Of a stretch of 64,000 nt of DNA, positions 5,128 to 62,874 are shown piece after piece. The translations under genes were made by a program, and so were the position numbers. Each line of letters begins with the position of its first letter. Within the stretch, counting starts at the first letter, position 1. The notes beneath the pieces are model-generated. The model was not told where the DNA came from. It saw nothing but the letters and a program-made list of their open reading frames with translations, and did no database searches. This DNA comes from Gracilariopsis chorda (taxonomy: Eukaryota > Rhodophyta > Florideophyceae > Gracilariales > Gracilariaceae): assembly GCA_003194525.1 (NCBI GenBank), contig NBIV01000342.1, positions 1-64,000 of the forward strand, read 5' to 3'.

Positions 5128-5906
5128 TGTTGAAAGTTGAAAGGAAGTTGAGGGGATGGAAGGGAAGTTCGCCAGCTCTAGCTTGGATTTACTTGGAGGT
5201 CCTTCAGGCACATCTTATGTACCACTCTAAACTCGAATTGCGCGGGAACACCAACTACAAGTAAAACCTAAACCACTAAGCAGGGACACTCAATACTACC
5301 AATCATCATCTAACATGACATAGCCAGCTCAGCACAACCTCATTACACCAACGCACACCAACGCACCAACGTTCTGTAATAGTTACGTGCATACACATGA
5401 CCATGACAAGGCACAAATTCACGACTCCAACACACGCCAGCACATGCCAACACATCACGGTAAGTCAACACGTTACGGTAAGTCGGCACGTAACCTGTGG
5501 TGTTAGTGCCATGTCATCATGTGGCAATGCACACAACACCCACGTCATCAATATACCCGTGCATGTGTAAACCTGTTGACAGTGCATGCGCACCTTACCA
5601 TTGTACCAACCACTGCTGTACCACTTGTACCAGGTGTCAACCACTTCATCAGTATCCCCTGCACACAACGTACACTGTGACCACTGTAGTAGCTGGACAC
5701 GTGGGTGTGTCCAACCGATCCAGTTATGCCATACCACTTGTACGCACCACGTTGCATATGTACATTTGCAGTAGCCAATCAGAAGCCAGTTTCACGTTGG
5801 GTTCGCGCACACGCGCATATGCGCTTTTGCAGAGGTACCCTCTAAAACAGCCCATGCTCCCCGGAACATTTGGTTTTCAGTGACAGCACACGTACTACTG
5901 CCAACA
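5128..5906 (-). repeat. 5' LTR of copy A (779 bp)
   Basis: Bounded by TGTTGG...TCAACA on the minus strand and the same length (779 bp) as both LTRs of copy B. U3 holds the perfect palindrome GCGCATATGCGC (5813-5824), then CAACGTGAAAC and an ATTGG (inverted CCAAT) box. The inner end adjoins the primer binding site directly. Confidence 0.93.
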
Positions 5907-13253: not shown

Positions 13254-14032
13254 TGTTGGCAGTAGTACCTGTGCTGTCACTGAAAACCAAATGTTCCGGG
13301 GAGCATGGGCTGTTTTAGAGGGTACCTCTGCAAAAGCGCATATGCGCGTGTGCGCGAACCCAACGTGAAACTGGCTTCTGATTGGCTACTGCAAATGTAC
13401 ATATGCAACGTGGTGCGTACAAGTGGTATGGCATAACTGGATCATTTGGACACATCCACGTGTCCAGCTACTACAGTGGTCACAGTGTACGTTGTGTGCA
13501 GGGGATACTGATGAAGTGGTTGACACCTGGTACAAGTGGTACAGCAGTGGTTGGTACAATGGTAAGGTGCGCATGCACTGTCAACAGGTTTACACATGCA
13601 CGGGTATATTGATGACGTGGGTGTTGTGTGCATTGCCACATGATGACATGGCACTAACACCACAGGTTACGTGCCGACTTACCGTGACGTGTTGACTTAC
13701 CGTGATGTGTTGGCATGTGCTGTCGTGTGTTGGAGTCGTGAATTTGTGCCTTGTCATGGTCATGTGTATGCACGTAACTATTACAGAACATTGGTGCGTT
13801 GGTGTGCGTTGGTGTAATGAGGTTGTGCTGAGCTGGCTATGTCATGTTAGATGATGATTGGTAGTATTGAGTGTCCGTGCTTAGTGGTTTAGGTTTTACT
13901 TGTAGTTGGTGTTCCCGCGCAATTCAAGTTTAGAGTGGTACATAAGATGTGCCTGAAGGACCTCCAAGTAAATCCAAGCCAGAGCGGGCGAACTTCCCTT
14001 CCATTCCCTCAACTTCCTTTCAACATTCAACA
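13254..14032 (+). repeat. 5' LTR of copy B
   Basis: TGTTGGCAGTAGTACC...CAACATTCAACA. The palindrome GCGCATATGCGC is at 13336-13347, followed by CAACGTGAAAC and GATTGGCTACTGCAAA, the U3 block seen in every copia LTR here. Joined upstream to the integrase hinge of D. Confidence 0.95.
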
Positions 14033-14047
14033 GGTTATGGGCCCAGC
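14033..14047 (+). promoter_or_regulatory. primer binding site of copy B
   Basis: GGTTATGGGCCCAGC directly follows the 5' LTR. It complements the anticodon stem and loop of eukaryotic initiator tRNA-Met (GCTGGGCCCATAACC), not the 3' CCA end, indicating half-tRNA priming as known for Drosophila copia. Confidence 0.85.
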
Positions 14048-15043
14048 CCCGCTGACCGCTGCCGCTATCCCTTTCCGTATCGTTCGTCTGTCGCCGCTCT
14101 CCCTCACCGCCGTTCATCCGTTTCGCTGTTGTTGCCTCTTTCGTCGTTGCGTCGGGTGTAGTGATCCCATTGTTGGTCGGTGTTGGTCATTCTCTTTTGG
14201 TTTGCGTTCCTCCCTGAGGGCGTTGTGGTGGTAGTGGTTCGACGTTTACTTCCTATCGTTGTTGAGTTGGGCCTCTGTTGTTGCCCGTGTTGTCGATCGC
14301 TATCTACTTTGTGTGTGACACTCCCTCTATCTTGTGTTTTGGGATCCCCGAGTCGTTTGTCGGGTCGTATCCGTGAGGTCGAGTCGGTCCAGTTTCGAAG
14401 TCTGGGCTCCGTGATCGTGTGCTCAGCAGTTGTTTGTTTTTCGTGTTTCTTAATCATCATCTGGTTTCCAGTGCGACGAGCGGTTGATCCGGGTTACTTT
14501 GGGTGATTCCAGGTATCCGGGGACGTAAGCCTGGCGGCTTGAACCAAAGCGGGTGTACTGTCGAGCGGCTTCCCACCGGTCCATTTGGACAGATAACGGT
14601 GAAGGTCGTTAAGACCTGGTAAGTTCAGCGGGTGCATCTGTGGACGGGGTGCCGTGGCGTACTGCGCTGGTGCGGGTGATTGAATTATTTGTTTTGATCC
14701 TGACTGCGTGTCGGGATTCTTGGGCTGTTGCGAAGGTATTCCATAACGAGCTTTTGATCCGTGCATCTGACCCTTGGGCGTTTGTGCGGGGAGGCGACGT
14801 GGCGTAGGCTGACCTCCTTCTTAGGATCAGGCCGCGTGTGACCTTAAGTGGTTGCGCGTTAGCAGCGTACTTTGGTTGCCATAGTAGCTTCAGTTGCGAG
14901 GTCGCGCAAGTTCTTGCAATAGGCCAGAGAGGGTTATACTTGGTGAAGGCAAATCTTGGGTCATTAACCATCCTCTGGAAGCCTCGTAGAGAGCGACGCA
15001 TCTTCTCCTTAGACGTAGGAGAGGGAAGACAGAAAAAGACGTC

Positions 15044-15252: not shown

Positions 15253-18200
15253 ATGGATTCATTCGGTGGCACCAAGATTGAAAAGTTGGGCGAGGATAAC
15301 TTCCATGTATGGAAGCAAAAGGTTGAGTTGCTGCTTGCACTCAAGGACCTCGATGACCATCTTGAATCAACCAGGCCTACGGACGATGACGAGTTGTCAG
15401 CATGGAAGAAGAAAGACGCCAAGGCCAGGGCTGTTATTGGTCTCAGCATCAGTGATGAGCATTTGGACCATGTGAGGGATACCGAGAACGCTGCGGAAAT
15501 GTGGAAAGCCATTTGCGATGTGTTCCAGCGTAAAACGCTGCTCAACCGAATCAATGCAAGACGTGCCTTCTACACAGCCAAGATGCGAAATGATGAGAAA
15601 ATGTTACACTTCATCAATCGTGTTCGTCATCTTGCATCGGATCTGAAGAGCATGGACGTAGTGGTTGAGGAGGAAGACATCGCTATGGCAATCCTATGTG
15701 GGCTACCAGACCGCTTCGAAAACCTCATTGTCGCTATTGACACCACGATTGGTGATCGTAAACTCGACTTAGAGTTTGTGAAGAGTCGTTTGCTGCAAGA
15801 GGAACAGCGAATGAACGATCGTGCCAAGGAGGAGTCCGGAAGTGACACGGCTTTGGTCGGTGCGCAGTCACGAAAGAAGTCCATGGTGTGCTACTACTGT
15901 GGTAAGAAGGGGCATATCCAGAGAAACTGTTTCAAGAGACAACGTGACGAAGCTAGCAAAGAGCAGAGTGCTGCCGAAAACCCAGCTGTGCAGACCGACC
16001 TCGGCAACGAGAAAAGAGGATGTGACAGTGACTCTGACTTTGTTTGTCTCATTACGACAGGTTCTGTGGAAGAAAGTATCAGTGACTGGATCATTGACTC
16101 TGGTGCCACCGCCCATATGACGTATGACGAGTCCATGTTTGACAGTTATAGCAAAAGAGAGTCTGCCAGTGTGAGTATCGGCAATGACTCGAAGCTGGGT
16201 CTCTTGGTCATGGCAGTGTCCATCTCGATCTCGCTGTTGAAGGGCGTAAGAGCAAGTGCCGGTTGGGTGAAGTAGTGCACGTACCGAATCTAAGGTATCA
16301 TCTGATGTCAGTATTTACGATGTGTGACCTTGTTGCGCGAGTGGTGTTTGACAAAACCAAAGTATGTGTATACAGAGGCAACACCATGATCGCCCAGGGC
16401 TGTTGCATCAAAGGACTGTACTACCTATGTACCGCGATTGAAGTACCAGAAGACATGGACAACGCACTTGTGACTGACCTGTCACCATGGCATGCTCGAA
16501 TGGCTCATGTGAATATGGATGGTATCAAACATATGGCTCGCAACGGTATTGTGTCAGGGCTGAATGTGGACTTGAATCAATCGATGGATGTGTGGGACTC
16601 TTGTGTAGTGGGAAAATCTACACGTGCTCCAACTCCCTAGCAAGGGGGGGAACGGGCTTTGCACCCATTGGACCTAGAGCATTCGGACATTCGTGGTCCA
16701 ATCCAAGTAGGTTCCTTGGGAGGTTCACGCTACTTCGTCACATCCATCGATGATCACTCCCGTTTTTGCTTCTTGTACATGCTCAAGACCAAGGAGGAGG
16801 TGTTCCACGTGTTCGTGAAGTGGCTCAAGATGGTTCAAAATCAGAGTGACCGACATGTGAAAACCATCACCGCACGTGAGTCTGTGCTACATGCGTTACG
16901 CACAGACAATGCAGGTGAATATGTGTCAAAGAAGTTTTCACAAGAGCTTGAACGTCACGGTATTGAACATCAGCGAACGGTGCCTTACAATCCACATCAG
17001 AATGGTTTGGCCGAACGGTTCAACCGAACACTCATGGACTTGGTGAGATCGATGCTGCATCACAAGAAACTGCCAAAGAGCTTCTGGGCTGAAGCATTGA
17101 ACGTTGCAGTGTATGTGCGCAATCGAGTCACCTGCAAGGCCCTTCCGAGTGACGTGACACCACTCGAGATGTGGAGTGGATATGAACCTGACTTGAGCAA
17201 TCTGCGTGTGTTCGGTAGCCGGTGCTGGTATAAAGTGGTGGACCACAAGCTGAAGAAGCTGTAGCAACGTGCCGTGGAGGCGATCTTTATTGGGTACACA
17301 TCTGGATCGAACGGTTATAAACTGCGGGATGCGCAAAAGAAGAAGGTGGTTGTGTCGAGAGATGTGAGGTTTGACGAATGTAGTGGTTCAGATCAAGGTA
17401 CTGACCACGTTGATGATGACGACTATGCTTAGATCGAAATCTCAGACAAGCCGAAATCAAACATCACCTCCACCTCTACTACACCCACCGATGCTGCCCA
17501 AGTTGAACCCGCTGCACCAGATGCTCCACCAGAAGAAGCTTCAGGCAGTGGCCACGATGAGCTCACAGCTGAGACAGAAGTTGAGCCAGACGTACCAGAT
17601 CCACAACCACTTCGGAGATCCACTCGTGAGCGTAGAGCGCCTACCTCGTGGTGGCGCGGAACTGCTCTACTCACTGCCAGTGATGATGTCCCATCCTCAT
17701 ACTCGGATGCCGTGTCACGTCCTGATTCAAAAGCGTGGACCAAGGCCATGAACAGTGAGTACGAGTCTCTGATGGAGCATGACACATGGGAGTTAGTGCC
17801 AAGGCCAGCTGACAGCAACGTGATATCATCCAAGTGGGTATTTGTGCAAAAATATGAGGCTGGCGACAACGATGAACCGACAGTGAGGTACAAGGCTCGT
17901 GTGGTGGCTCGAGGGTTTCTGCAGATCGAAGGTGTAGACTTCTCCGAGACGTATGCACCAGTGGTCAAATTCACATCCATTAGAATGATTCTGTCCATTG
18001 TAGCAGTGCAGGACTATCATCTGCACCAGATGGATGTGAAGACTGCATTCTTGAATGGTGACCTGGAAGAGACTGTGTACATGGAGCAGCCGGACGGATT
18101 CATCAAACCTGGGAACGAGGACTTGGTATGCCTTCTCAAGAAAGCCATCTATGGGCTACGACAGGCATCAAGGCAGTGGTTTGCAAAGATGTACTTGTTC

Positions 18201-19277
18201 CTCGTGGGTTGGATGGGTCTGAAGCCAAACGTTGCAGACGAGTGCGTCTACACCGGAGAGGTACTGGGAGCGCTTGTGATCATTGCTCTTTCTGTGGATG
18301 ACTTGCTCATTGCGAGTCCAAGTATGGAGACAATGAATCGCGTAAAGCGTGAACTGTCAAAACGTTTTCAGATGAAGGATCTCAGTGAAGCGCGCATGGT
18401 ACTTGGGTTCGAGATCCATCGTGATCGATCCAAAAGACAGCTGTACCTGACACAGTCTGCATACACGCGTAAGGTCTTAGAACGTTTTAGCATGTTGCAG
18501 TGCAAACCAATGGACACTCCCATGGACTCCGGTGCTGACCTCACTAAGGTAGAAGAGCCTCTGACGAACATCCCGTATCGTCAGGTGATCGGTTGTCTGA
18601 TGTATCTCTCTGTTGGCACTCGACCGGACATCTCGTTTGCAGTGTCCAAGCTAGCCAAGTATGTCGAGAAACCTGGAGAGACTCATTGGAAAGCGGTCAA
18701 GCGTGTTCTGCGTTACCTCAATGGCACTCGCTCCCTCGGACTTACTTATGGCACCACGACTGATACTCAGCTGTATGGATACGTAGACTCTGACTGGGCA
18801 GGTGATAGATCCAACTGCAAGTCCACCAGTGGGTATGTGTTCATGATGTGCGGTGCTCCTGTGTCTTGGAGCTCGCGCCAACAGGAAGTAGTTGCATTGT
18901 CTAGCGCTGAGGCTGAGTATGTGAGTCTGTGCAGTGGGACGAAGGAAGCGATCTGGCTAAGAAGACTGTGGAGTGGCATTGGCAACGCAAGTGGACTGCA
19001 CGTGGATGAATCAGTGACGCTAGTGGTTGAGCCCACAACTGTGTACGTGGACAACCAAGGTTGCATCGACCTTGCTCGAAATAGAGTTGTGAACAAGCGT
19101 ACTAAGCACATTGATATTCGCTTTCACTTCACCAGAGAGGCTCTACGCGACAAAGAAGTCCAGTTGCAGTACTGTTCCCCGGAAGACTTGGTTGCCAATA
19201 TGCTGACGAAAGCGCTCGGTCGAGTTAAGCTGGCAAGGTTCCGCGGTGACTGTGGCTTGTTCCCCTTAGACCTTTGA
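15253..19277 (+). pseudogene. copia Gag-Pol polyprotein of copy B, one frameshift and three stops
   Basis: Starts at ATG 15253 and ends at TGA 19275-19277. Order: Gag; zinc knuckle CYYCGKKGHIQRNC at about residue 215; protease IDSGATAH; integrase (DSCVVGKS, HSDIRGPI, RTDNAGEY, NGLAERFNRT); RT (VDDLLIAS box, preceded by Ser where YVDD has Tyr); RNase H (SDWAGD, SAEAEY) to the C terminus. One base is missing near 16197 relative to A. TAG stops occur at 16638, 17262 and 17430 where A has AAG, GAG and GAG. The integrase zinc motif has WDSC where A has CDSC. From 17433 to the end RT-RNase H is fully open. Confidence 0.92.
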
Positions 19278-22957: not shown

Positions 22958-25900
22958 ACTTCATAAGTCTAGGGGTAGAAGGCCACCGTCACCGCGGAAG
23001 TTCTCCAGCTTCACCCGCCCAAGTGCCTTCGTAAGCATATGAGCAACCATGTCTTCTGTGGAGCAGTACTGCAACTGAATAGCTTTCTCACGTAGAGCCT
23101 TTCGTGTGAATTGAAAGCGAATTTCGATATGCTTCGTACGCTTATTGACAACCCAATTGCGAGCGAGGTATATGCAGTCTTGAATGTCCACATAAACCGT
23201 TGTGGGTTCAACCATCAGCCTTATGGACTCATCTACGTGCAGGCCAATTGCTTCACTGATGGCACTCCCAAGTCTTCTCAGCCAGGTTGCCTCTTTCGCT
23301 CAGGAACATAGATAGACTCACATACTCAGCCTTGGCACTGGACAGCGCAACTACGTCTGTTGGCGTGAGCCCCAAGACACAGGAGCACCACCCATTATGA
23401 ACAGATACCCACTAGTAGACCTGCGTGTCGATATGTCATCTGCCCAGTCGGAGTCTACATATTCATAAAGCTGAGTATCCGAGCAGGATCCATACGTGAG
23501 TTCAAAAGATCGAGTGCCGTTGAGGTACCTCAGTACACGCTTGACTGCCTTCCAATGAGTCTCTACAGGTTTGTCGACATATTTTGCTAGCTTGGACAAT
23601 GCAAAAGATATGTCCAGTCGAGTACCCACAGAAAGATACATTAGAGAGCCAATCTGTTGCCTGTATGGGATGCTTGTCATAGGTTCCTCAATCTGAGTAA
23701 GGTCCACTTTGAAGTCCATGGGAGTGTCCACTGGCTTCGAATGAAACATGCCAAACCGTTCGAGGACCTTGTACGTGGACACTGACTGCCTCAGGTACAA
23801 CTTTTTCTTACCTTCGTCCCGACGAATCTCGAATCCTAGAATCATGCGAGCATCATCCCTGTCCTTAATTCGAAGACGGTTCGACAGCTCAGTTTTCAAT
23901 CAATCTATTGCATCCATTGATCGAAATGCTATAGTTAGGTCGTCTACGTACAGAGCAATGATTACCAACACTTCCAGTATCATCTCGATGTAAACACACT
24001 CTTTAGCACAGTTTGGCTTCAGACCCAGTTCTTCGACAAGGAAGGCATCAATCTTTGCTTTCCATTGCCTTGGTCCCTGTCGCAGCACATATAGAGCTTT
24101 CTTTAGATTGCACACCACGTCCTCGTTGCCAGATTTTACGAACTCATCTGGCTGCTTCATATACACAGTTTCCTCGACGTCGCCAGTCAAAAATGCATTC
24201 TTCACATCCATCTGGTGTAGGTAATAGTCCTGCACTGCCACAGTGGACAGAATCACTCTTATGGATGTAAACTTGACTACTGGCACATATGTCTCTGAAA
24301 AGTTGACGCACTCAAATCGTAGGATACCACGAAAAACCATGCGAGCCTTGTAACGCACTGTTTGGTCACCACATACATTGACCTCATACTTTTGCATAAA
24401 TATCCATTTGGACGAAATAACGTTGTCGTTGGCTGGTGTTGGCACTAAGTCCCACTTTAAATGCTCCATCAATGACTCATACTCACTACCCAAAGCTTTG
24501 ATCCATGCCTTGGAATCCAGTCGTGACACTGCATCCAAATACGAAGATGGGATGTCATCAATGGCTGTGAGTAGGGCTGTGCCACGCCACCAAGAGGTAG
24601 GAGCTTTGCGTTGAAGAGTGGATGTTGGGAGTGTTTGTGCTTCTGGTATCTCGGAGTCACTATGAGAAGCAGCTGTGGGCTCATTATGACGGCCTGAATC
24701 ATCGTCAAGTGCAGTGTCTGGTGCAGCAGGATCATCTTGAGCAGCATGGGTGGGTGTCGTAAAAATAGGAGTGACTTTCGATTTGAACTTTTCTGATACG
24801 TTAATTTCAGCATAATTGTCATCATTGACGTGGTGAGTACCCTGCTTGGAATCACAAAACTGGTTAAATCTCACATCCCTGGACACAACTACCTTGTGTT
24901 CCTGATGATCCCACAATTTTAACCCATGCGAGCCAGATTTGTACCCAGTACAGGTCGTCTCTATTGCACGTGGCTCTAGCTTTTTGAGCTTGTGGTCCAC
25001 TACTTTGTATCAGCATCTACTACCAAACACACGCATACTGCTCAACTCAGGCTTTTGTCCACTCCAAAATTCGAATGCTGTCACGTTATTTTGGAGGGCT
25101 CTGCATGTCACTCTCTTGCGCACGTACACTGCAACGTTCTGTGTCTTAGCCCACAAACGTTTAGGCAGATTCTTGTAAAGCAACATTGAACTAATGAAGT
25201 CCATGAGTGTTCTTTTAAAGATTTCTGCGAGACCATTCCGATGTAGATTGTAAGGCACCGTGCGCTGTTGTTCAATAAAATGGCATTCAGGTTCGTGTGT
25301 TAACTTGTTTGACAAATCACCACTAGCGTTGTCTGTGCATAACGCATGTAAGACACATTTGCGTGCAGTTAAAATGTTCGCATGCTTGCCGGTCTGGTGT
25401 TTGGCAAACTTGAGCCACTTTACAAACATTTGCAGCACCTCATCTTTGGTCTTGAGCATGTACACGAAGCAAAAATGGGAGTAATCATCAATGAATGTGA
25501 CAAAGTAACGCGAGCCACCCAAGAAAACAACCTTTATTGGACCACAGATATCAGATTGAACGAGTTCCAGTGGTGTTTTAGCCCGTTCTTCCCCTTGCTT
25601 GAGAGTGGGAGTGCAGGTAGACTTTGCCACAATACAGGAGTCCCACACATCAATCGATTGAGTCACACCCACATTCAGCCCGGCCACAGCACCACTTCGA
25701 GCCATATGGTTGATGCCATCAACATTTATATGAGCCACTCGTACATGCAGTAGTGACAAGTGTGACAGAATTGCGCGATTGGATGGTCTCGATGGGTCAA
25801 TGTCGGTGCACAAGTAGTACCGGCCTTTAATTCGACGCCCTTTTGCAAACAGCGCCGAGCCCTTATACACACATACTTCGTGCTGGTCGAGAACCACAGT

Positions 25901-26979
25901 AGCACCCCAGTCACATATCAACGATACCGAGAGCAGATGGTACTTCAAGCTCGGTACACGCACCACATTTCTCAACCGGCAATCACGGTTTGCCCTTCAA
26001 CAGCAAGATCAATGTTGATACTGCCATGGCCACGTGACTCTACCTTGGAATCACTACCGATGCTCACACTAGACGACATTTTGCTCTCTTATGTTTGGAA
26101 CATGGAGTCATCATAAGTCATTTTCGCAGTTTCTTCAGAGTCACCGATCCAGTCACTTTTTGTGGCCATGATAGAACCGCTGGAAATGAGACACACGTAT
26201 TCAGAACCACTGCAGCCCACAGCGTCTTCGTTGCCGAGAACAGTGTGCAGACTTGGGTAGGGACCAGGACCTTGTTCTTTGTTAGCATCATAACGTTGTT
26301 TCTTAAAACAGTTTCTCTGGATCCTTCTTGCCACAGTAGTACCACACAACGGACTTCTTCCGAGACTCCCTGCCCACCAAAGCTGCGTCACTACCAGATT
26401 CTTCCCTTTCAAGTTCATGCATTTACTGCTCTTCTTGCAGCAAACGACTCTACACAAACTCCAGTTCGAGTTTGCGGTCACCAATTGTAGTCTCGATAGC
26501 AACGATGAGGTGCTCAAAGCCTTCCGTTATTCCACATAAGTAGCCATAGCAATGTCTTCACCCTCACCCGTGACATCCATACTCTTAAGATCCCATGCGA
26601 GATAACGTACGCGATTGATGAACTGTAACATTTTCCCGTCATCCTGCATCTTGGCGGTATAGAAGGAACGTCGCGCATTGATTCGGTTGAGCAGCTTCTT
26701 GCGCTGAAACACATCGCATATGGCTTTCCACATTTCTCCAGCATTGTCCGTTTCTCTAACATGATCCAAATGCTCATCACTGACGGTCAGAGGAATCACA
26801 GTTCGTGCCTTGGCATCTCTCTTTTTCCACTCTGACAAATCGTCATCGTCCGTGGGTTTGGTTGTTTCGAGATGGTCATCGAGGTCTTTGAGTGCCAGAA
26901 GCACCTCAACGTTTTGCTTCCATACGTGGAACTTGTCTTCTTCCAGCTCCTCGATCTTCATGCCATCGAACGAGTCCAT
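22958..26979 (-). pseudogene. copia Gag-Pol polyprotein of copy G, decayed
   Basis: Start ATG at 26979 (MDSFDGMKIEELEE). Gag runs to about 26100 with frame breaks near 26525 and around the knuckle. Integrase lies at 25975-25010 with WDSCIVAKS and an altered catalytic region (ARNG-type core changed to NGLAEIFKRT; second Asp in CTDNASGDL). RT lies at 25000-23900 with an intact ALYVDDLTIA box, then 23899-23351, and RNase H to 22961. Shifts and stops separate the segments. Like B, it has Trp for the first Cys of the integrase CxxC. Confidence 0.88.
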
Positions 26980-50731: not shown

Positions 50732-51494
50732 TTAAATGAGGACTTGCTCGTCATCCCATCCATCTTCTTCGACTGCAACAGTTTCAGGTTCGTCACTAAT
50801 TTCCTCCCCTTGTTCCCCATTGAGTTCAAGTACTCACACCATGAGTTTGCTAAATGCTTCACTTCGCTTATGGATCAAAGTACGGCGGAGCACTGTTGAC
50901 TTGTGGGCTACTGCAACTTGGCGTTCCAACGAGAGGTCCGCCATTTGACACCGCTGTGCTGAGAGCACTCGCTTCCCAGTTTTTTGATTGCGTTCTACAG
51001 CAGCAGTTGACGCCGGGGCACGATAGACCTTCTCCAAAGCCGCAGCCACGTGTGGAAGCTTCTCCTGAATTTGACCCCAAATGTAGCGTGGTTGGAACTC
51101 TTTAAAACGAGTCAGGAGAGCACAGGGATTCACGTTAAGCTCAAGATATTCGCCCAAGAGGAACTGGAAATGATATTCATCCGTCGCCAATGTTTCTAAA
51201 GCAGAATAAAACTGCTCAGTAACTGCTCCTTTGTCGAGCTCTAACGATGATGTGCCAAAGTGAAGGGATGGAAAATCATTGTAGCATGGATCAAAATGAA
51301 TGGCTAACTGGTAAACAGGGTTGTATACGCGATCCCAACGGCAATAGAGTGAAGATTCCAGAATCTGTTTTTCCGCAGCGTTGAGGAAAGAAGATGCACG
51401 CATTGTCCATAAAGTAGCCACGAAGGACGCATAAGCATCAGCCATGGTTGCGCAATCACTTCCTAAGAGACACATGAACGTCGCAAATGGATAG
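50732..51494 (-). pseudogene. hAT-like transposase, C-terminal half
   Basis: Minus-strand frame entering from the TSD at 51494: YPFATFMCLLGSDCATMADAY, then NPVYQLAIHFDPCYND, EFQPRYIWGQI, and the dimerisation-type motif APASTAAVERNQKTGKRVLS near 50980 (compare PASSAASER in hAT C-termini). An in-frame TGA at 50834 is followed by a further open acidic tail (ISDEPETVAVEEDGWDDEQ) to the TAA at 50732, so TGA is probably a nonsense change. The other half lies beyond gypsy2 at 62875 and onward. Confidence 0.7.
51490..51494. repeat. target-site duplication of gypsy2, left
   Basis: GATAG, identical to 62870-62874. Confidence 0.9.
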
Positions 51495-52396
51495 TGAAGT
51501 GCAATCCTCAAGGAGGAAGACTCAGCGATGCCCTGTGGACTTGGTGTTTTTGCCGCTTTCGCGTGTTTATGATTACTACCGCTATTAACGGGTGTCTCAG
51601 CCCTCAGCGGATCCGCACTGTGCACCAGGTGCACACCTGTGCATGCGCCGTGTGCCACCCAAGGCGTGAGTGGACCACGTGTGACACAGATAGTCAAGAG
51701 GAGGTTGGCACCACGGTGTGGACATTTAGTTAACTTATATTTATTATTTATTATTTATCTACGCTACAGTATGGAGATTACTACACTATATAGTGGCTCG
51801 GCGACCTCGCCCTGACACTGAGTAAACTTCCCCAACCAGGGTTCTTTGCTCTAAGTCTTTTCCGCTTTCGCCAGTCTTCTACGCTCCTCGGAGGTAAAAC
51901 CGCGTTACTAACGGTAGACCTATCCACCCTGCGTCACTAGGAGTATCACCGCCTTGGGCACTTGTCACGTAATTCACTACCGTCGTGTTCTCGCCCCTGT
52001 ATAGGGTTCCTTTGTACCTTTTTCCGTGGTCCCGTTGGCCCACACCCCCGTCGCCCCCAATCGGGCACCCCCCGTATTCCCCTTACCCCACTCTCGTGGT
52101 TTCTACCCCTTTGTGTGGTTGCTCGTCACCGCTGACGCGTGTCTCTCGTGCCGGTATCCCGTGACGTCTTCCCCCACTTACGTGGACTCGTACTCCTTGG
52201 AAGGGCTGTTTTCCCATTCGTGGTGATCCTAATCCTACCGTTTCAACTCTCCCCGCTTGGCGTGAGGGTGAGCCTCGGCTTTACAACCCGACTTCGTCGT
52301 GCTCATCCGGAGAGGCTCCGTTCGCTGTGTTACCCTCCAGAGGAGAAGATTCCGAACGTCTTCGTGTGTTGTCCCGCTTGCAGGTATTGCACTACA
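51495..52396 (+). repeat. 5' LTR of gypsy2 (902 bp)
   Basis: TGAAGTGCAATCC...TTGCACTACA. An AT-rich TTATATTTATTATTTATTATTTAT stretch (about 51735-51758) could serve as a TATA region in the sense direction. Ends three bases before the primer site. Confidence 0.95.
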
Positions 52397-52399
52397 AAG

Positions 52400-52419
52400 T
52401 GGTCTCCCGACCTAGAATC
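52400..52419 (+). promoter_or_regulatory. primer binding site of gypsy2
   Basis: TGGTCTCCCGACCTAGAATC complements a tRNA 3' end GATTCTAGGTCGGGAGACCA. G72 (paired with C1) plus discriminator A are eukaryotic tRNA-Tyr identity features, so tRNA-Tyr is the likely primer. The tRNA itself is inferred. Confidence 0.7.
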
Positions 52420-52511
52420 GGAAACGGTTAGGTTTTGTATTACCTCTCCTCGGAGATTCACTGTCCAAACTTTTGGTTTCTTACCACTTCGTGGGAGTTT
52501 TTGGTCTACAC

Positions 52512-54625
52512 ATGTCTCGGCGACCATCCTCCGCCGAACCCGTTGTCACGCAGAGTCGTTCCGTCAGTGACGTGGAACAGGCAGAGATCTCGAAGGTCCC
52601 CGCTGGCCACCCTCGACGTGCCACTTTGAAAGGCAAGTCGAAGGTCCAAGACTCGTCGAGAGCCGAGAAACCCCCGCCTAAGGCGTTGAAGAACGCTCCC
52701 AACTCTGGTGTCGACCCGGCTTTTGCCGATGTAGCTGCACCCCGGAGGGGAGAACCCGATACCGACGCCCCCCTAGTGTCCAAGCGCAGCTTGATGAGGT
52801 GCGTGAAGCACACAATACCCTCGTGGAGGAGTTTGAAGTGCTGCGTGTCAGGTTTGATACCTCTTCTATGAAGGATTTGGCTGAGGACATTCGCCTTTTA
52901 AGGGAAGATGTCAACACTGTGCTGGAATGTTTTGGTGGTCCTGCCAACTATGTTGAGAATGTAGAAACCCGATTTGATCGTGTCAGTGCCCGTCTGAGGA
53001 CGTTGGAGCAAACTATCTTGATGGATGACAACGTCCTGGGTGAGGCCGCTGCTGCCTCGCAAAAAGCGAAGCGCGAGAAGAAAGATTCTACCCGCCGCAC
53101 TCGTAAGAAGCAGCCCAAGCACGATCCCGACTCGTCGGATTCCTCCCTGTCTTCACAGGATTCTCACCATTCAGATGGTTCGGTGTCGTCGGATTCTTCG
53201 TCGGACGATGATCGTCGCCGACGCCCGTCCCATTCTAAACGGTCTTCTTCCACCCAAGGTGTGATTCGCCCCCGGAGGAAGGGGAGGAAGCACTTAGGAT
53301 TGAGGGAACTCAAATGTACTAATCCTCTCTACAAGAGGTTGGTATCATACCGATATTATCGGCTTGAGAACTCCTCATTGGATCGTACACCCCGTGGTAC
53401 GGGTAAGGTGAAGGACTGCATAAAGCGTATGCAGCTTTCCATTCGTAACCAGTCCTTTTCTGGAGAGGATCCCATATTGGTGTTAGACTTCCTCGGACGG
53501 TTCGTTTCCGAAGCGGACATACTTGGTATGAACGAAGGACAGGCGTTTATTGCCCTACCGTATTTTCTACGTGGCCTCGCCGAAGATCAATACAACTCTG
53601 TAAGAGGTTCTTCCCGAGCCTCCGAAGGAGGTGTACCGTGCTGGCCGGAAGCGGTTCAGTACCTCTTGCGATCCTACGCGACGAACAACGCTCTTCAAGT
53701 GGCTATTCTCGCTTTACGCGATACCCGCCAGAAATCTGGAGAGACAGAAACCGAATTCTCGGTACGCCTTAATAAGGCTTTGTACAGGTGTGGCAATGTT
53801 TACTACTCTGGAGAGCGCTGCACCATGTACATCGATGGATTGGATCCGGCAATCCGTACGCTGGTGGCCCGATATCGGGAGGATCGTCGTAACACCACCT
53901 ACCTGGAGTTGATTCAACACGCGCAAGCGGAAGTTGATGCACTTCGAGCTCGTATCCCTGCATCGAAGTCTCGTCCCGCCAAGGCGTTGATGATGGAAGC
54001 CAGTTCACCATCTTTATCGCTAGCAGCGAGTGGATGCCCTTCAAGGGACTACGATAACGTGTACCTGGCTCAATCCGGTGCTCAGTCTATTCCGACCACG
54101 GAACTGCCGTCCACGACGGATGTGTCCTACGACACAGCTCAGGAGCATTCCCTGCTGTATGTTGACGGACCCCGTGTCCACGGACCTCGCATTCCCTATG
54201 CGAATGGTGCCCTCCGGCAGAGTCGTCCCGGATGGAAGGATTCCCGCCCAGCGGTGAGAAACACGGATGCTCGTTCCGGTCAGCCGCCCCCACGTTCTGG
54301 AGTCTTATGCCACATATGTTACGAACAAGGTCACATTTCACCGGACTGCATCCTCACTTTGAGAGAAGTAACCCGAGTGATCAGTAACTATGAAGCCCTT
54401 ACTCCAGCGGAGAAGCAGACCGTTCCGATTGCATCGTACTTACGGGCGAAGACGGACTTCCCCCGGAATATCCCGGATACGAACCCGCCACACGCGTTGC
54501 TTTCTCCTGCTGAGCAGGTCACTAACCCCCGTCTTGTTCGACAAGACACCCCCGCTAGCGCTCCACTGCTAGTGGCTCAGGATTCTGAGACCCCGCCTCA
54601 GGCGGAACGGGCTCAGGAAAACTGA
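52512..54625 (+). pseudogene. gypsy2 Gag, with a -1 shift at a C6 run
   Basis: ATG at 52512 (MSRRPSSAEP). The first frame runs to about 52773. Coding then continues one base back at GCCCCCCTAG (PSVQAQLDEVREAHN...) to the TGA at 54623. Adding one C would give a continuous frame. Regions: Ser/Pro-rich start; coiled coil (VREAHNTLVEEFEVLRV); Lys/Arg then Ser/Asp-rich stretch (53060-53260); capsid-like part (GEDPILVLDFL, GLAEDQYNSV); zinc knuckle CHICYEQGHISPDC (CX2CX4HX4C) near 54310. The shift may be programmed, a mutation or an assembly error. Confidence 0.85.
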
Positions 54626-55200
54626 TTTCGGGAGTCACCCCTACGGGAGAGGCGCCCTCAGAGTTGAGGTTGAAGGCGCCGGAGGCGTCACTGCCTCGCT
54701 TCCCGGTCAAAATCTTTACTAGGAAACAGGCCGTCTCAGACGTGAACTCTGAACACTTTAGTGTTCTGCATCGACCATGGAAACGTGTTCGAAACAACCG
54801 GTTCCCGGACAGAGTTTTGGTAATGTCCAAGAGAAACTACAAGGTATATGCTGACCTTGGCCTTTCCACCCAGTTTATGGTGCGAGTTCTCACTGTTTTG
54901 GACACAGGTGCAGGCCCGAACTTCATCGTTGAGTCGCTCCTGCCACCGTCGTTGCAGTCTAAGATCCGCCATGGCGTGATACCGGATGTCGCAGATGCCA
55001 ATGATAACCCGTTATCAACGGTTGGGACAATCGACCTGGTCGTGCGCCTTGGCTCCTTTCTTGTGAAACTCACCTTTATTGTTTGTCGGAAACCTGGGAC
55101 TCTATAAAGCTCCGCGTTGCCGCGTCTGTCCAACTTCCACCGGAATCCCAAGTTTGGGTACGAGTCACTTCCCGTCAACACGGTTTACGAGTAATTCAAC
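54626..55200 (+). pseudogene. gypsy2 retropepsin-type protease, damaged
   Basis: Pol continues in the -1 frame relative to Gag; the Gag stop TGA at 54623 lies in the overlap. The protease box LDTGAGPNFIV is near 54895-54930. The frame meets TAA at 55105. The linker (QLPPESQVWVRVTSRQHGLRV, about 55130-55195) is in another frame, then the pol frame returns at about 55198 (NVLVANLGSTRQ). Part of the usual protease C-terminal half seems missing. Confidence 0.75.
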
Positions 55201-58200
55201 GTGCTGGTCGCCAATCTAGGCTCTACGCGCCAGTCACTGGTGAAAAACCAAGTCATTGGTTCGGTAATGCCCCACCCCACCGCGATGGTTCCCACGAGAA
55301 TGCCCGCCGCCGATGTCCTCGGTCTCGTTCACTCTAAGGAGGGGGAGGACACTGCCGTCCGAATGCCGAAATGCACGGATGCTAAGCCGGTTCCAACCAG
55401 TTACGACCGGATTGATCCCGTGAAAGAACTCGAGGAACTTGACCTCGGTCATGTGCCGGAATCGCACCGTGAACGTCTCCGTGAGATGCTACGGAATTTC
55501 ACCACGATGTGGGATGGCTCCCTAGGGGAGATTACTACAACGAAGCACCGGATTGACTTGCTACCTGATACCAGGCCGATCGCTCAGCACCCCTACAGGG
55601 CAGGCCCTAAAGCTCGAGAAGAGGAAGAATTCCAAGTGGAAAAGATGCTCCGAGCTGGAGTAATAGACCCGGCTCAGTCGCCGTTGGCATCCCCAGTGGT
55701 ACTGGCTCCGAAACAGGATGGATACTGGCGCTTTTGCATCGACTACCGTCGACTGAACGCCGTAACCATCAAGGATGTGTACCCGATCCCACGAATGGAT
55801 GAGTACATCGATTCACTCGGAAATGCTACCGTTTTCATGGCTCTAGACGCCAATTGGGGATACTGGCAGGTGCCCGTCAGGGAACAAGACCGCGAAAAGA
55901 CTGCTTTTGTCTGTCACTCCGGACTCTACCGTTTCAAACGGATGCCTCTTGGTTTGACAAATGCTCCCCCTACTTTCCAGCGTGCTATCGACATACTAAT
56001 GGCTCGCTTCAAATGGCGTACATGCTTCGTCTACCTGGAAGATATCATAGTATTCTCAGATAATCTGGATGACCACCTCACACACGTGAGAGATATCATG
56101 ACCACGCTACGTGAGGCTGGAGTTACTCTCAAGTTGAGGAAATGTGAGTTCTTTACAGATACAGTGAAGTATCTGGGCCACATAATCCGCCCTGGGCGTG
56201 TGATGATCGAGGAAGTTCGAGTTAAGTCGCTCCGTCAAGCGAAGGAACCCGCCACTGAAACGGAACTACGCTCCTTTCTAGGATTAGTCAACGTCTATCG
56301 ACGGTTTATCCCGAATTGTGCGGATATCTCAGCACCCTTGAACGCGCTCTTGCGGAAAGGCCAACCACCAAAATTGGAACCCTTTACGTCCGTCGAGACG
56401 AAGGCGTTTAACTCCCTCAAGGAGGCTGTAACATCAGCACCGATCTTATCGTTACCGAAACCCGGACTACCGTTTACCGTAGACACGGGTGCTAGTGACT
56501 ACCAAGTAGGTTGCGCTCTCTTTCAGACAACTCCTGAAGAAGAACGAACCCCTATTGGGTACTAGTCACGCTCACTGAATGTTCACGAGCGGAATTACTC
56601 CGTCTCGGAGAAAGAGTGTCTTGCAGTTGTGTGGGCACTCTCCACCCTCCGCCCCTATCTTATGGGTGTGCAATTCACCGTTTACACGGATCACTCGTCA
56701 TTACGATGGCTCATGACAGTCTCTGAACCGTCAGACCGCTTAATGCGTTGGAGGCTCCGCCTTGCGGAATTCGACTTCGAGGTGATCTACAAGAAGGGCA
56801 CAAAGAACGCTCAGGCGGACGCGCTGCCGCGTTTAACCACGGATGGTGAAACTCTACCCGCTGGGAACGAGGACATTTCTTGCTTCGTCGTCGACGGTCG
56901 AGAACCAGAGAACCCGGACCGTGAACCCGATAACTCGGATGAAGAACCGGAATCGGATGATGAACTGGACGCACTACTCGTCTCGGACGATGCTCAGAAA
57001 CCCCCACCGGGTAATTTCGTGCCAATACCCCTGGAGGAGATGGTCAGAGAACAGCAAGGTGATCCCTTCTGTACTCAGATTCGCGCCCGAATTAATGGCG
57101 GTGCGCAACTCCCTTTCGAGGTGAATGATGTTGGATACCTCGTCAGGACGGTTCAAACAACCCCACAGGTAGTGGTACCGCATACTCTACAATCTAGAGT
57201 GTTGCACTTGTCGCACTATGCGAAACTTGGTGGACACGCCGGTGGACGGAAACTTTACCTCACGTTGCGACGGAGTTACTATTGGCCACACAGGGCTGTG
57301 GACTGCTACGTGACTGTGCGGCCATGCACGGAGTGTGCCAAAAACCGGGTAAAAGTACGGAAGCACTCAACGAAGTTGAAGTTATTCCCAGCACGGGCCC
57401 CTCTAGAGTTTGTCGCAATTGACCTCTTGGGACCGCTGCTCAACACAAAGCGTGGACATAAGTTTTTACTCGTTATCACGGATCGTTTCTCCAAGTTGGT
57501 TCGCACCGTACCTTTACGGAAGATATCCGCTTTCGCGGTGGGGCAAGCCTTCGTCACCCATTGGGTATTTGTCTACGGACTACCGGTTAACATTCTATCC
57601 GATAACGGAAAGCAATTCGCATCGCGATTCTTTGAGGACGTGTGTCGGATTCTCGATATCAAGAATCTGTTCACAACGACCTACCACCCTCAGTGTAATG
57701 GGCAAGTCGAGCGGTTTAACCGAACGCTGTTAGCCTCTCTCCGTTCTTACGTTGCTGATCACCCCAAAACATTGGACCTGTACACTGACGCTTTGACGTT
57801 TGCGTATAACACACAGGTACACCGTACAACGGGTTTGACTCCATTTGAATTGGTACTTTCGCGTCATCCGCCCGCCGTAGCGTTGGAACCCCAGCCTACG
57901 CTGGCAAACTTCTCTTCCGTGAAGGATTATCGCCAACGATGGAAACCGTGGCTTACGAAGGTAATCCCGGTCGCCCGGAGCTCCATGGCACGAGCACAGG
58001 CCACGTACAAGCGTGATTTTGACTCTCGTGTACGAGATACAGCACCGCCAATTAAGGAGGGTGACTACTTCTTCGTCCGTAAGGAGCACTGGAACCCTGA
58101 TAAGGAGAAACGGCATAAGCTCTCACCCGTCGCGAACGGTCCCTACAAGGTCATATCAGTGGATAACGACACCTTAGTGGTGGAAATGAACGACGCTCAT

Positions 58201-59916
58201 GAGCGGATTTCCCGCGATCGCGTTGTTATGGCATCGCCACCCTCCGTAGAGGTTGCTTACGAAGATGAGAACCAACACAACCCAGTGGAACAACCCACAT
58301 CTGTGGTTAACAGGACTTCTGTGTTGCCACAACCTTCAAGGGGACTCTCAGATATACCGTCCTTATCGGACGCAGGCCCGAATGGCCTTTCTTCTCTAAC
58401 GCCACCACGCGGTGTCTATCCCCGCAGTTTGGGCGCTTCTACCACTCCCCATGCCGCCCCATCTAAGGAGGGGGAGGAGAACCCTAACTCCCGTCGAGAG
58501 ATTGAAACGGCTTCGTCGCGTCATGACAACCGTGGTGCACGGACCTCCGGACACATCGAAAAGGACAATAGTGGACCGAGAGTCCCGTCTACGGACGTGC
58601 CATCTTCGCATTTGCGCGCTACAGCTACCGCTGAACCCTCTCGAGGAATGTCTACCGCATCTGCGCCAGATCGCACTCCCCACCGGGATTCTAGTCGTCA
58701 AAATGCACCACGCAGTGGGAATTCTCTCGCCAAAGTGAAATCGTTGCAGGAAACTATTCGCGTTTGCGATACTGAACCGGCTGTGCCATCGAGCGTTGAT
58801 CCGCATTCCGTGGGTCACGGTTCGTCAACAACAGCTACGCTGGATAATGCAGAGCAGGCCCTCACGGGATCCTCTGAGCCGACTACACCGGACGTGGTAA
58901 CTCCTACTGCACGGCAGAACACACCGGCCAGGCCAGGCAAGCACACCGTACAGGACGGAAGGAAAACGACCAGCAAGCTGGATTCTGGTTTAGGACCATC
59001 GCGCAGTCGCGAACTCACTCCGAGTGTCTCGGTTGATCCCGACAGTGTCGCCAAAGTCGCACCGGTCACTCCGGAAGGAAAGCACGTCAAAGACGGAAAT
59101 ACTTCGTCGCCGAAGCGAGACAACACACCGACAGCGCCGTTGCAACCGCCCTCACGTGAGGAGGCGGAACGCAACACGGCGCGGACAACCCTCGACAATC
59201 CGTTGCAAACGGCACGTGACCCCGACACCGTACGGACGGCAAAGGCACCAATTACCGCCTGAGGCGAGTCGACGCGTACTGTACGACGCACCGTGGTGCA
59301 ACCGACTTCGTTGTCTGAAGCACCCCCGTCAAGACGGATATCTACACACAAACCTGTGGTTCGCGACCCAGATGCTCATCTTTCAGATGCGTTAGAAGCC
59401 CCTTAAAGGGTATCGTCAATAGACGCCCCCTCAAGGAGTGAAGAAACCGCGAAGCGGGATACTTTAACCCACAGCAAGGGTCCGGATACGCACCATCAAG
59501 TGGTCGACGCAACCGGCCGTGCTGAAGACCTCCAGGCACGCGAAGCGGATGAACCTACCCGGAAACCGGTTAATGACCCCTCGAAGGGCATGGACAGGCA
59601 GTACCAAGCCATGACCCTTCCGGGGAAGACTGTCCAACACCCACCAGTGGTGGTAGAGCCTGCCGTGCAGGACGCGATAATGCGAACACGGCGAGGCCGG
59701 GAAGTCTACAAACAGGAGTTTGTTGTTGACCACATTGTGGAACATTCTTACCATCCAGATGGTTACATCCAGTACCGCGTACGCTGGTAGGGGTTCGGGC
59801 CCGAATATGATTCGGATGAGCCAATAGAGCACCTCCCACGTTCGAAAGTGGTGTCATATCCTCGCAGAACGCGAACGGGAATCCTGGCATCGGTGATAAA
59901 CGCCCAAGTGGGATAA
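55201..59916 (+). pseudogene. gypsy2 Pol: RT, RNase H, integrase, GPY/F, chromodomain
   Basis: One frame from 55201 to the TAA near 59914, with four internal stops: TAG 56563 (for Trp in GYWSRSL), TGA 59260, TAA 59404 and TAG 59788 (for Trp in VRWxGFG). RT: KHRIDLLPD, PSPVVLAPKQDG-type core, YLEDIIVFS where the catalytic box is normally YLDD. RNase H: YTDHSSLRWL. Integrase: HHCC zinc site (HLSHYAKLGGH, CTECAKN) and DDE core (IDLLGPL, SDNGKQF, NGQVERFN). GPY/F: NGPYKVI near 58140. Then about 450 codons of Ser/Thr/Pro-rich linker and a chromodomain (FVVDHIVEH, YRVRW, PEYDSDEPIEHL) at 59710-59850. Confidence 0.93.
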
Positions 59917-60129
59917 GCAAGCCACTGCAGTGGAAGGAAGGAAATGAAGGATCGAGTTGTGGTGTGGAAAGGAAGAAAGGAAAGGAAAGAAGAAGGAACA
60001 CAAGTCAACTTAGATTTTATTCGATACGATCGATGGAACACCGACTAGTCGAAGGACTACACTACGTCACAAGGTTGCACCCCCATGGTGAGGGAACACG
60101 CCCGCTTACGGGTTGGAACTGCCCCCACC
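59917..60129. other. intergenic gap between convergent pol and antisense ORF
   Basis: Contains a 70-base purine-rich tract (GGAAGGAAGG..., about 59930-59998) that could act as an internal plus-strand primer or as a terminator for one of the convergent transcripts. No other feature seen. Confidence 0.5.
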
Positions 60130-61932
60130 TTAGTGGTTATTTCCCTGGAGTCGGGCTATCAGAGCATCCCGCATCGCGGTGAAATCACCACTGGCCTCGC
60201 TACCTCCCAGCCCTACTTGGCGGAGGAACTGAGAGATCACGGCAGCCTGACCCGCAGGGGCCACGTTCGCCTCACCTGGCGTAGAGGACCCACCAGTGGG
60301 AAGACCGACCGACGGATTGGACGGCTGACTCGCAGGGGCGACTCCAGGAGCATCCATACCATATGGTTCTCCCTCTGCCTCGGCGTGACCGGCACCTTCG
60401 TTGGGCTCGTTGTCGAACATTGGATCCTCACCGTCGTAGAAGTTGTAGTACTCATCGGCGTCAACAAAACCAGTCGGATGCCCCTCAGGGATATATCTCG
60501 GTGCAAACCGGAGCCCGTTCGCTTCCTCCGTGGAGATCTCATGCCTCTCCCAAGGGTTGAAGTAGATGAAGTCACCCGCGAGCGGAGTTTGACGCCCTGG
60601 CGACAGGTCCTGTATCCTGCTACCGGCAGTACGCCCACTCTGCTCTAGAGGAACCGAAGCCCAGTCAACCTGGTCGATGAAATCGAGGAGCCCCGCTACT
60701 TCGTCAGCGTTTGCCTCACCACCTAGTGGGATTCGTAAGTCCAGCGCTCGGATGGCGGCATGGACCCGCAACGGGAGGAACCACAGTCTGTACTGGTCAT
60801 AAACCTCGCAGAGGATGAAAGCCGTTGTGCGGACCGCCCATTTGGTGACCGCCACGGACCAGAGCCCGGACTGAGGATCCTCGATGAGGTATGAGCCGTA
60901 ATACGTGATCACGGGAGGCAACGCGATGTAGCAACCTCGGCACGCTTCGAGATGCGACCACCACGGTGGAATCGGAACGTACCGACCCTGTCGGTTGACC
61001 ACGTCTACGTTCTGATACGGAATCAAATACCCAAATCGGGACCGTGCTCGCCGCTCAAAGCGTATCATCGACAAGAAGCTGGCCCTCGCCAAGCGACGCA
61101 TATAGCGGAATTCAGCCCGAATGATCTGTCGTGTCCAGCACACCGCGTCTTGGCGCGCCGCGGGAATGCTTCTCCACAAGAGTGGTTCCAAACCCGCTAG
61201 GCCATCGAGGTACCCCATTTCACCTTGGGTGCGATACAATCCGATGTCGGAGCCCATACCATCGGGGATGGGATACTCAAAGGGAGCCCGGCGAAGCCGT
61301 TGATGAGCGAGTAAGACAAACGCCGCGTGCGCGGAAGCTGCTGATTCCCGACCCCGTCGGATTACCGTGCGCACGGGTATCGCTACGCGATTGCGCCAAT
61401 CCCACGAAGTGGTCACGATTGCCGGAACGTCACCCGGGAGCATTCCGTTTCCATCGGTATACATTGCCAGAAGCGCATCATTGAACACCGCAGTCGGGTG
61501 GAACCACGGCGCCAGCCGGAGAGTCATCGCATGTTGCGAAGGCTGCAGCCCGACCAGCATGTCGTACGACGGCCACGCTCCCATTAGATACCCTCCCGTG
61601 GGAGCCGCACTCGCATTTGCGCCTGTTTGTTGCGAAGGAGTCGAGAGACCGCTCTGCGGTAGAGGCACGGAATGAAATCCAGAGAAGTACTGTAACGGTG
61701 TGTTGCTGCCGGCGTTGCCGTTGTTGTTGCCGTTGTGGTTGTTCATCGTAGATGAAGGAAGCCGAGTAATCGGAGAAGAAGGACGCGAAAGCGTATGTGT
61801 TGTTGGAAGAACCTCGGAACAGTTGGTCGCAGATTCGCTGTTCGCAGCTAGGTGCTCGTTGCCCAGAGTGGGATGGAGAACCGGCGAGCCGGGCTTACAT
61901 TTAAGGACCTTGCCCGGTGCTTTCGTCGCCAT
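60130..61932 (-). CDS. 600-codon antisense ORF of Ty3/gypsy element, unknown function
   Basis: Intact frame on the opposite strand to gag-pol. It starts MATKAPGKVL at 61932, 36 bases inside the 3' LTR border (61968), and ends TAA/TGA-side at 60130. Residues 1-115 are Ser/Thr/Asn/Gly-rich (Asn-Gly run after a second Met at 63). Residues 118-400 are globular-looking and rich in Trp, Tyr and Arg (WFHPTAVFND, EFRYMRR, RYVPIPPWWSHLE, LPPVITYYGSYLIEDP, GLWSVAV). Residues 485-525 are acidic (DADEYYNFYDGEDP). The tail is Pro/Gly-rich with a final amphipathic helix (FTAMRDALIARLQ). No signal peptide or clear membrane span. A homologous decayed frame is at the same place in gypsy1. Antisense extra ORFs are known in some plant Tat-lineage gypsy elements (Grande), but I see no specific match. 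Transcription would have to start from the 3' LTR or nearby. Confidence 0.8.
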   Translation of the reverse strand: MATKAPGKVLKCKPGSPVLHPTLGNEHLAANSESATNCSEVLPTTHTLSRPSSPITRLPSSTMNNHNGNNNGNAGSNTPLQYFSGFHSVPLPQSGLSTPSQQTGANASAAPTGGYLMGAWPSYDMLVGLQPSQHAMTLRLAPWFHPTAVFNDALLAMYTDGNGMLPGDVPAIVTTSWDWRNRVAIPVRTVIRRGRESAASAHAAFVLLAHQRLRRAPFEYPIPDGMGSDIGLYRTQGEMGYLDGLAGLEPLLWRSIPAARQDAVCWTRQIIRAEFRYMRRLARASFLSMIRFERRARSRFGYLIPYQNVDVVNRQGRYVPIPPWWSHLEACRGCYIALPPVITYYGSYLIEDPQSGLWSVAVTKWAVRTTAFILCEVYDQYRLWFLPLRVHAAIRALDLRIPLGGEANADEVAGLLDFIDQVDWASVPLEQSGRTAGSRIQDLSPGRQTPLAGDFIYFNPWERHEISTEEANGLRFAPRYIPEGHPTGFVDADEYYNFYDGEDPMFDNEPNEGAGHAEAEGEPYGMDAPGVAPASQPSNPSVGLPTGGSSTPGEANVAPAGQAAVISQFLRQVGLGGSEASGDFTAMRDALIARLQGNNH

Positions 61933-61952
61933 CGTGGATGTCGTATTCGCAC

Positions 61953-61967
61953 CTCAGGAGGGGGATA
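61953..61967 (+). promoter_or_regulatory. polypurine tract of gypsy2
   Basis: CAGGAGGGGGATA ends at the 3' LTR; it overlaps the space just upstream of the antisense ORF start. Confidence 0.75.
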
Positions 61968-62869
61968 TGAAGTGCAATCCTCAAGGAGGAAGACTCAGCG
62001 ATGCCCTGTGGACTTGGTGTTTTTGCCGCTTTCGCGTGTTTATGATTACTACCGCTATTAACGGGTGTCTCAGCCCTCAGCGGATCCGCACTGTGCACCA
62101 GGTGCACACCTGTGCATGCGCCGTGTGCCACCCAAGGCGTGAGTGGACCACGTGTGACACAGATAGTCAAGAGGAGGTTGGCACCACGGTGTGGACATTT
62201 AGTTAACTTATATTTATTATTTATTATTTATCTACGCTACAGTAGGGAGATTACTACACTATATAGTGGCTCGGCGACCTCGCCCTGACACTGAGTAAAC
62301 TTCCCCAACCAGGGTTCTTTGCTCTAAGTCTTTTCCGCTTTCGCGAGTCTTCTACGCTCCTCGGAGGTAAAACCGCGTTACTAACGGTAGACCTATCCAC
62401 CCTGCGTCACTAGGAGTATCACCGCCTTGGGCACTTGTCACGTAATTCACTACCGCCGTGTTCTCGCCCCTGTATAGGGTTCTTTTGTACCTTTTTCCGT
62501 GGTCCCGTTGGCCCACACCCCTATCGCCCCCAATCGGGCATCCCCCGTATTCCCCTTACCCCACTCTCGTGGTTTCTACCCCTTTGTGTGGTTGCTCGTC
62601 ACCGCTGACGCGTGTCTCTCGTGCCGGTATCCCGTGACGTCTTCCCCCACTTACGTGGACTCGTACTCCTTGGAAGGGCTGTTTTCCCATTCGTGGTGAT
62701 CCTAATCCTACCGTTTCAACTCTACCCGCTTGGCGTGAGGGTGAGCCTCGGCTTTACAACCCGACTTCGTCGTGCTCATCCGGAGAGGCTCCGTTCGCTG
62801 TGTTACTCTCCAGAGGGGAAGATTCCGAACGTCTTCGTGTGTTGTCCTGCTTGCAGGTATTGCACTACA
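61968..62869 (+). repeat. 3' LTR of gypsy2 (902 bp)
   Basis: Same length as the 5' LTR; differences are mostly transitions (for example CCCCCGTCG to CCCCTATCG). The antisense ORF reads away from it, so any antisense promoter would lie in its first part. Confidence 0.95.
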
Positions 62870-62874
62870 GATAG
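62870..62874. repeat. target-site duplication of gypsy2, right
   Basis: GATAG, identical to 51490-51494. Confidence 0.9.

Follow-up and report, generated by a model that had tools for sequence, protein, structure and literature searches.

The window, by which we mean the whole 64,000-nucleotide stretch of DNA that was analysed, contains a Ty3/gypsy chromodomain element of 11.4 kb at positions 51495-62869. Between pol and the 3' LTR of this element, on the strand opposite to gag-pol, lies an open reading frame (ORF) of 600 codons. The element and its surroundings are laid out as follows.

51490..51494, no strand: left copy of the target site duplication, GATAG, read from the sequence
51495..52396, plus: 5' LTR, 902 bp, TG..CA, from comparison of the LTRs
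52799..54625, plus: gag ORF, 608 codons when counted from the GTG of the ORF list, a putative start; assigned from its place and from the sequence by eye, with similar stretches in family B and no match to a gag profile in Pfam
54664..55107, plus: protease stretch, recognised by eye from DTGAGPN; Pfam search without a match
55201..56565, plus: reverse transcriptase and start of RNase H (Pfam RVT_1 9.1e-34, RT_RNaseH_2 1.3e-13)
56629..59262, plus: end of RNase H and integrase, then a long spacer (Pfam RT_RNaseH 5.9e-12, Integrase_H2C2 8e-11, rve 3.4e-8)
about 59704..59865, plus: chromodomain region of the pol tail, by translation; the like region of family B matches Pfam Chromo (1.5e-10)
59914..59916, plus: usual pol stop codon, found in 39 of 41 copies
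60016..60021, minus: AATAAA motif, 109 nt past the antisense stop
60130..61932, minus: antisense accessory gene, 600 codons, ATG start, from the ORF list, selection tests and comparison of families A and B
61956..61965, plus: polypurine tract upstream of the 3' LTR, by eye
61968..62869, plus: 3' LTR, from comparison of the LTRs; presumed source of an antisense promoter
62870..62874, no strand: right copy of the target site duplication, GATAG, read from the sequence

The two LTRs, which differ at 11 of 902 positions, start with TG, end with CA and are flanked by the 5-bp duplication; with the polypurine tract (by eye) and the pol order reverse transcriptase, RNase H, integrase (Pfam), the element has the features of the Ty3/gypsy group. 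It also carries a chromodomain at the end of pol, as elements of the chromovirus type do; this domain was identified by Pfam in one copy of a sister family, family B, and in the corresponding region of the window by translation, in agreement with the earlier note, which had described a chromodomain element. In the window copy, gag-pol is split into several ORFs, and a TAG at 59788 interrupts the chromodomain; this stop occurs in 1 of the 41 copies compared and is absent from the other 40. The end of integrase and the chromodomain are kept apart by a spacer of several hundred codons (window positions 58200-59700), and a spacer of this size between these two domains is unusually long.

GC content varies from 44 to 58% across 2-kb steps of the window. 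Much of the first 26 kb is taken up by Ty1/copia-like ORF pieces, recognised by eye at 820-3902 (minus), 7436-9031 (minus), 10467-13265 (plus), 15253-19277 (plus) and 23900-25975 (minus).

The antisense ORF starts with an ATG at 61932 and extends to 60130 on the minus strand, opposite to gag-pol, as had been reported from the first inspection of the sequence; its place and orientation are those of an aORF-3R. The start had then been put 36 bases inside the 3' LTR, which is wrong: the LTR begins at 61968, and the ATG is located 35 bp outside it. The length of the frame was compared with that expected by chance using 2000 first-order Markov sequences of 1968 bases each, with the local dinucleotide make-up, read in six frames. 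The longest open stretch in these sequences had a median of 159 codons, a 99th percentile of 294 and a maximum of 461, compared to the 600 observed. Because no Markov sequence passed 461 codons, a chance origin of the frame is excluded.

The antisense protein, of about 65 kDa, is made up of regions of distinct composition, much as the earlier note had described them: residues 1-115 contain 38% Ser, Thr, Asn and Gln, residues 116-310 are basic (pI 10.35), with 11% Trp, Tyr and Phe, and residues 491-545 are acidic, with 24% Asp and Glu and no Lys or Arg. Identity between the proteins of families A and B, taken per 40 residues, is 25-38% in residues 1-120, 47-70% in residues 121-520, 23% in residues 521-560, and 45% in the last 40 residues. 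The protein can be described as a variable head rich in Ser, Thr and Asn, followed by a core of about 370 residues (120-490) that is conserved and includes the basic stretch, then a linker of acidic character and a C-terminal end that is again conserved. No membrane-like stretch was found, the highest Kyte-Doolittle mean over 19 residues being 1.17 in family A and 0.88 in family B.

That the protein belongs to no recognised family, as had been stated from inspection alone, was confirmed by profile searches: in Pfam, PHROGs and NCBIfam, there was no match better than E 0.17, and in the PDB, the best match had an E value of 1.6 with a profile of three sequences, with none up to E 10 for the single sequence. 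In IMG/VR, 150 stretches fitted a pattern, of which 0 were confirmed. Comparison with the Gag of the element, again with a profile of three sequences, gave an hhalign probability of 0.15%. The Pfam search of the antisense proteins of both families detected neither PF04195 (TRP28) nor a bZIP domain; HTLV HBZ is a bZIP protein. An AlphaFold2 model of residues 115-490, made from the single sequence, had a mean pLDDT of 33.6.

A search of the host's own genome (91.3 Mb) with the whole antisense protein scored 76 matching places, some of which are two pieces of one copy. For a 196-residue core, the best 150 of 1318 candidates were scored, of which 62 belong to family A (79-100% identical to the window protein in the core) and 88 to family B (64-66%). 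Thus, there are two element families with the antisense gene in this genome, family A, which includes the window element, and family B, with 52% protein identity between the two. Among the 71 best-scoring of 1935 candidate places of family B, 58 are free of in-frame stops, a share that leans towards intact copies because of this choice of the best.

For comparison of copies, we used 40 places of family A, most of them almost full-length, and 7 places of family B. In 38 of the 40 A loci, the gene is clearly flanked by both pol-tail and LTR sequence; the exceptions are L015, which is without the pol tail, and L038, which extends only 18 bases into the LTR. All 7 B loci contain an open stretch of 157-631 codons bearing the chromodomain motif, in one of them assessed with Pfam, and in L050 and L052, this stretch was read as facing the antisense gene. 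The presence of the gene in many copies, and its conservation at a level like that of other element proteins, are again as in an aORF-3R.

Some copies are arranged in pairs. L009 and L013 (G000:C705:8852-10666, minus, and 12834-14648, plus) are two A copies that form an inverted, tail-to-tail pair with 2.2 kb between them. They have in common an in-frame stop at codon 274, which L029 carries as well; the pair may have arisen by palindromic duplication or by two insertions, or it may be an artefact of the assembly. L053 is an inverted tail-to-tail pair of family B (about 2039-5397 and 6297-9234), in which the antisense frame of one partner is truncated.

Selection in family A was assessed on the window copy and the 40 others by counting nonsynonymous and synonymous two-state variants and dividing their ratio by the one that neutrality would give. 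This relative ratio was 0.96 for singletons, 1.01 for variants found in two copies, 0.71 for those in three to five copies and 0.49 for those in six or more. In-frame stops, counted without frameshifts, are present in 19 of the 41 copies and absent from 22, and the distinct stop positions number 22, compared to about 28 expected under neutrality (688 two-state variants at 4.06%). Given that family A variation is mostly neutral, that 19 of 41 copies contain stops and that stops are hardly rarer than expected, the intactness of any one copy proves nothing. Differences from the window copy number 972, 959 and 1231 at codon positions 1, 2 and 3, respectively; relative to that copy, 80 of the 85 indels are multiples of three, and 40 of these 80 are accounted for by a single 15-base difference, seen 40 times among the 40 copies. 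Most of the variation in family A thus reflects the decay of copies once inserted, and selection is visible in the older variation only.

Comparison of the two families, over 584 aligned codons, reveals 218, 182 and 369 changes at codon positions 1, 2 and 3, with dN of 0.46 and dS of 2.61, so that dN/dS is a rough value because dS is near saturation. The antisense frame alone is open in both families, each of the other five frames holding 7-23 stops per sequence. Within family B, pairwise dN/dS is 0.12-0.46 (21 pairs from 7 loci, L053 being represented there by its truncated second copy). When each locus was represented by its single best match, the antisense gene had a pooled pN/pS of 0.28 (pairs, 0.11-0.40) and the pol tail of these loci one of 0.55 (pairs, 0.23-1.92). 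The contrast is a rough one, because a low-complexity spacer forms part of the pol tail and because a few single-base gaps, most of them in L051, disturb the frame in both sets.

The antisense frame, then, is under purifying selection as a protein. The earlier note had named random stops and dN/dS near 1 in other copies as observations that would speak against its proposal; both are found in the recent variation of family A, whereas the older variation of that family, family B and the comparison between the families show purifying selection. Judged from the sequences, the 600-codon antisense ORF is a real, selected protein-coding gene. Its age can be gauged from the identity between the families, which, compared to the 52% of the antisense protein, is 32-51% by stretch for gag, 55% for the integrase tail, 61-73% for the protease stretch, 67-79% for reverse transcriptase and 71% for RNase H-integrase. 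The divergence of the antisense protein is similar to that of gag and the integrase tail, and the gene thus fits presence in the common ancestor of A and B.

The reading that we favour, and consider fairly probable, is that a red algal chromodomain Ty3/gypsy lineage possesses, in this ORF, a genuine accessory gene, which is expressed from its own antisense mRNA and whose product acts in trans on the element. The parts of this reading that the copies themselves show are a frame kept in two families, purifying selection, a constant place and an AATAAA after the stop codon in both families. On the antisense strand, this motif is found 109 nt past the stop in family A, where it falls in the gap between two convergent stop codons, and 88-89 nt past the stop in two B copies. 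Within the LTR, TATA-like, AT-rich tracts precede the ATG by 281-333 nt in family A and by 254-256 nt in two B copies. These are candidate polyadenylation and promoter signals, read from motifs only. The antisense mRNA would start at a promoter in the 3' LTR, would probably be unspliced and would end at the AATAAA; because this motif stands in the 0.2 kb that separate the convergent stop codons, the transcript would not run into pol. The protein might act in trans on the nucleic acid of the element itself, in transcriptional regulation, in the handling of RNA or in steps within the nucleus; such a role is suggested by analogy with the antisense ORFs of plants, for which it has been proposed, and with retroviral antisense proteins, for which it is known.

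Several other explanations have to be weighed against this one. The open frame could be the by-product of a constraint that acts on the sense strand or on the structure of the RNA, or could owe its openness to the youth of the copies, and both the neutral recent variation of family A and the 22 of 41 A copies that are stop-free, largely because they are young, would fit such an origin; the other frames, however, are closed in A and B alike, the changes between the families pile up at third positions of the antisense frame, and the pN/pS of family B is 0.28, which makes this explanation exceedingly improbable. It also seems very unlikely that the ORF is a host gene which the element captured by transduction and now carries as cargo that plays no role for it. 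LTR elements are known to carry captured genes (PMC7264820), and our genome search scored the best places only, such that a spliced, diverged host homologue could have escaped it. Nevertheless, the gene occupies the same place and orientation in two families, has diverged about as much as their gag genes, lies clearly within the element in 38 of 40 A copies and is under purifying selection across the families; moreover, captured genes are described as mostly being in the sense orientation (PMC7264820).

The ORF follows pol and precedes the 3' LTR, which is where env is found, and its length is near that of Gag (600 and 608 codons); both would be in keeping with a structural protein, Env-like or a second capsid-like one, made from the antisense strand. 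We consider this quite improbable given the antisense orientation, because an Env-like protein would be expected in the sense orientation and with a transmembrane segment, which was not seen here (by hydropathy only), and given the lack of similarity to the Gag of the element (hhalign, three-sequence profile). It is rather unlikely that the protein mainly works against host silencing, whether this acts through RNA interference or through chromatin, or that it protects the element from dsRNA arising from antisense transcription. Convergent element RNA and antisense mRNA would be expected to form dsRNA, and the basic character of the core in residues 116-310 might be connected with such a role, but the protein resembles no known suppressor in Pfam, PHROGs, NCBIfam or the PDB. 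Our preferred reading thus remains that of an accessory gene with its own antisense mRNA, acting in trans. A more far-reaching reading is possible and is offered tentatively, namely, that the protein represents an undescribed accessory family, confined to red algal chromodomain gypsy elements, and that the gene is a regulatory one, gained independently of those of plants, fungi and retroviruses, with which the elements control their own expression or host silencing.

The gene content of the host genome was surveyed by profile search, which found 7 places of phycobilisome linker polypeptide, 1 of the phycobilisome family and 15 of light-harvesting proteins (the one that was read has light-harvesting proteins as its best PDB relatives), with 0 places for chitin synthase (PF03142). 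Contig C12 contains the best linker place together with two tubulin places and one light-harvesting place, and the linker on this contig is nuclear because tubulins share it. Nuclear phycobilisome linkers are a mark of red algae, and these genes therefore point to a red algal host; an oomycete, considered at first because of the look of the copia-like ORFs, was rejected in view of the linker, light-harvesting and chitin synthase results. There are four tubulin places in the genome, of which L057 (G000:C12) encodes an intronless beta-type tubulin whose PDB tubulin match extends only to residue 381 of 420.

LTR elements with an antisense ORF downstream of pol and ahead of the 3' LTR are already known as a class, represented by Grande, RIRE2, PvRetro13 and Boty, and the function of such ORFs is called unknown in PMC7264820. 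Grande gene23 and the ORFs of RIRE2 and PvRetro13 resemble the present gene in place, orientation and presence in most copies of a family, and the plant proteins are, as here, conserved to about the same extent as other element proteins (PMC7264820). The hosts of these three elements are plants, and the comparison of Grande and RIRE2 with the red algal gene is one of layout. The PvRetro13 protein is described there as having an SMC domain (PMC7264820), whereas Pfam detected none in the antisense proteins studied here. For Grande, a nuclear protein and a promoter of its own have been reported (PMC7264820). Retand likewise has a long region with antisense ORFs between pol and the 3' LTR, and DNA binding and a regulatory role have been proposed for its TRP28 protein (PF04195), as stated in PMC11963269; Retand, however, belongs to a non-chromovirus lineage with PF04195, whereas the present element is of the chromodomain type and lacks this domain.

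Outside plants, Boty of Botrytis cinerea and Sclerotinia sclerotiorum is named as an element with an antisense ORF in the same place, beyond pol and ahead of the 3' LTR (PMC7264820); its host is fungal, and the comparison with the red algal element is one of layout. HTLV HBZ, with an antisense promoter inside the 3' LTR (PMC7264820) and a nuclear protein (PMC11963269), shares only its layout with the model proposed here. Like the present element, the Chronos elements of oomycetes are chromodomain-bearing members of the Ty3/gypsy group whose hosts are neither plants, fungi nor vertebrates, and the accessible part of their description (PMC5348765) contains no mention of antisense, an additional ORF or an aORF. 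In Chronos, the gypsy RNase H is accompanied by a second one of plant type (PMC5348765); Pfam detected none at E up to 1 in the pol ORFs of the broken window copy (63 bases between two of these ORFs being outside the scan). Rotifer elements carry additional genes of other kinds (PMC5408684). The titles and abstract starts found in searches of an open-access library, which leaves subscription journals mostly outside, contained no report of an antisense ORF in red algal or oomycete gypsy elements. The layout, therefore, does not seem to be new, whereas the protein and the host do; accordingly, the suggestion in the earlier note that such a protein in a chromodomain element may be undescribed holds for the protein, which is of no recognised family, and not for the layout, established already and extending to the fungal Boty. 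Antisense genes near the 3' LTR, known from plant and fungal elements and from retroviruses, apparently extend to a red alga, and a genome in which such a gene shows a clear selection signal, in two diverged lineages and with many young copies, is a good place to learn the function of these genes.
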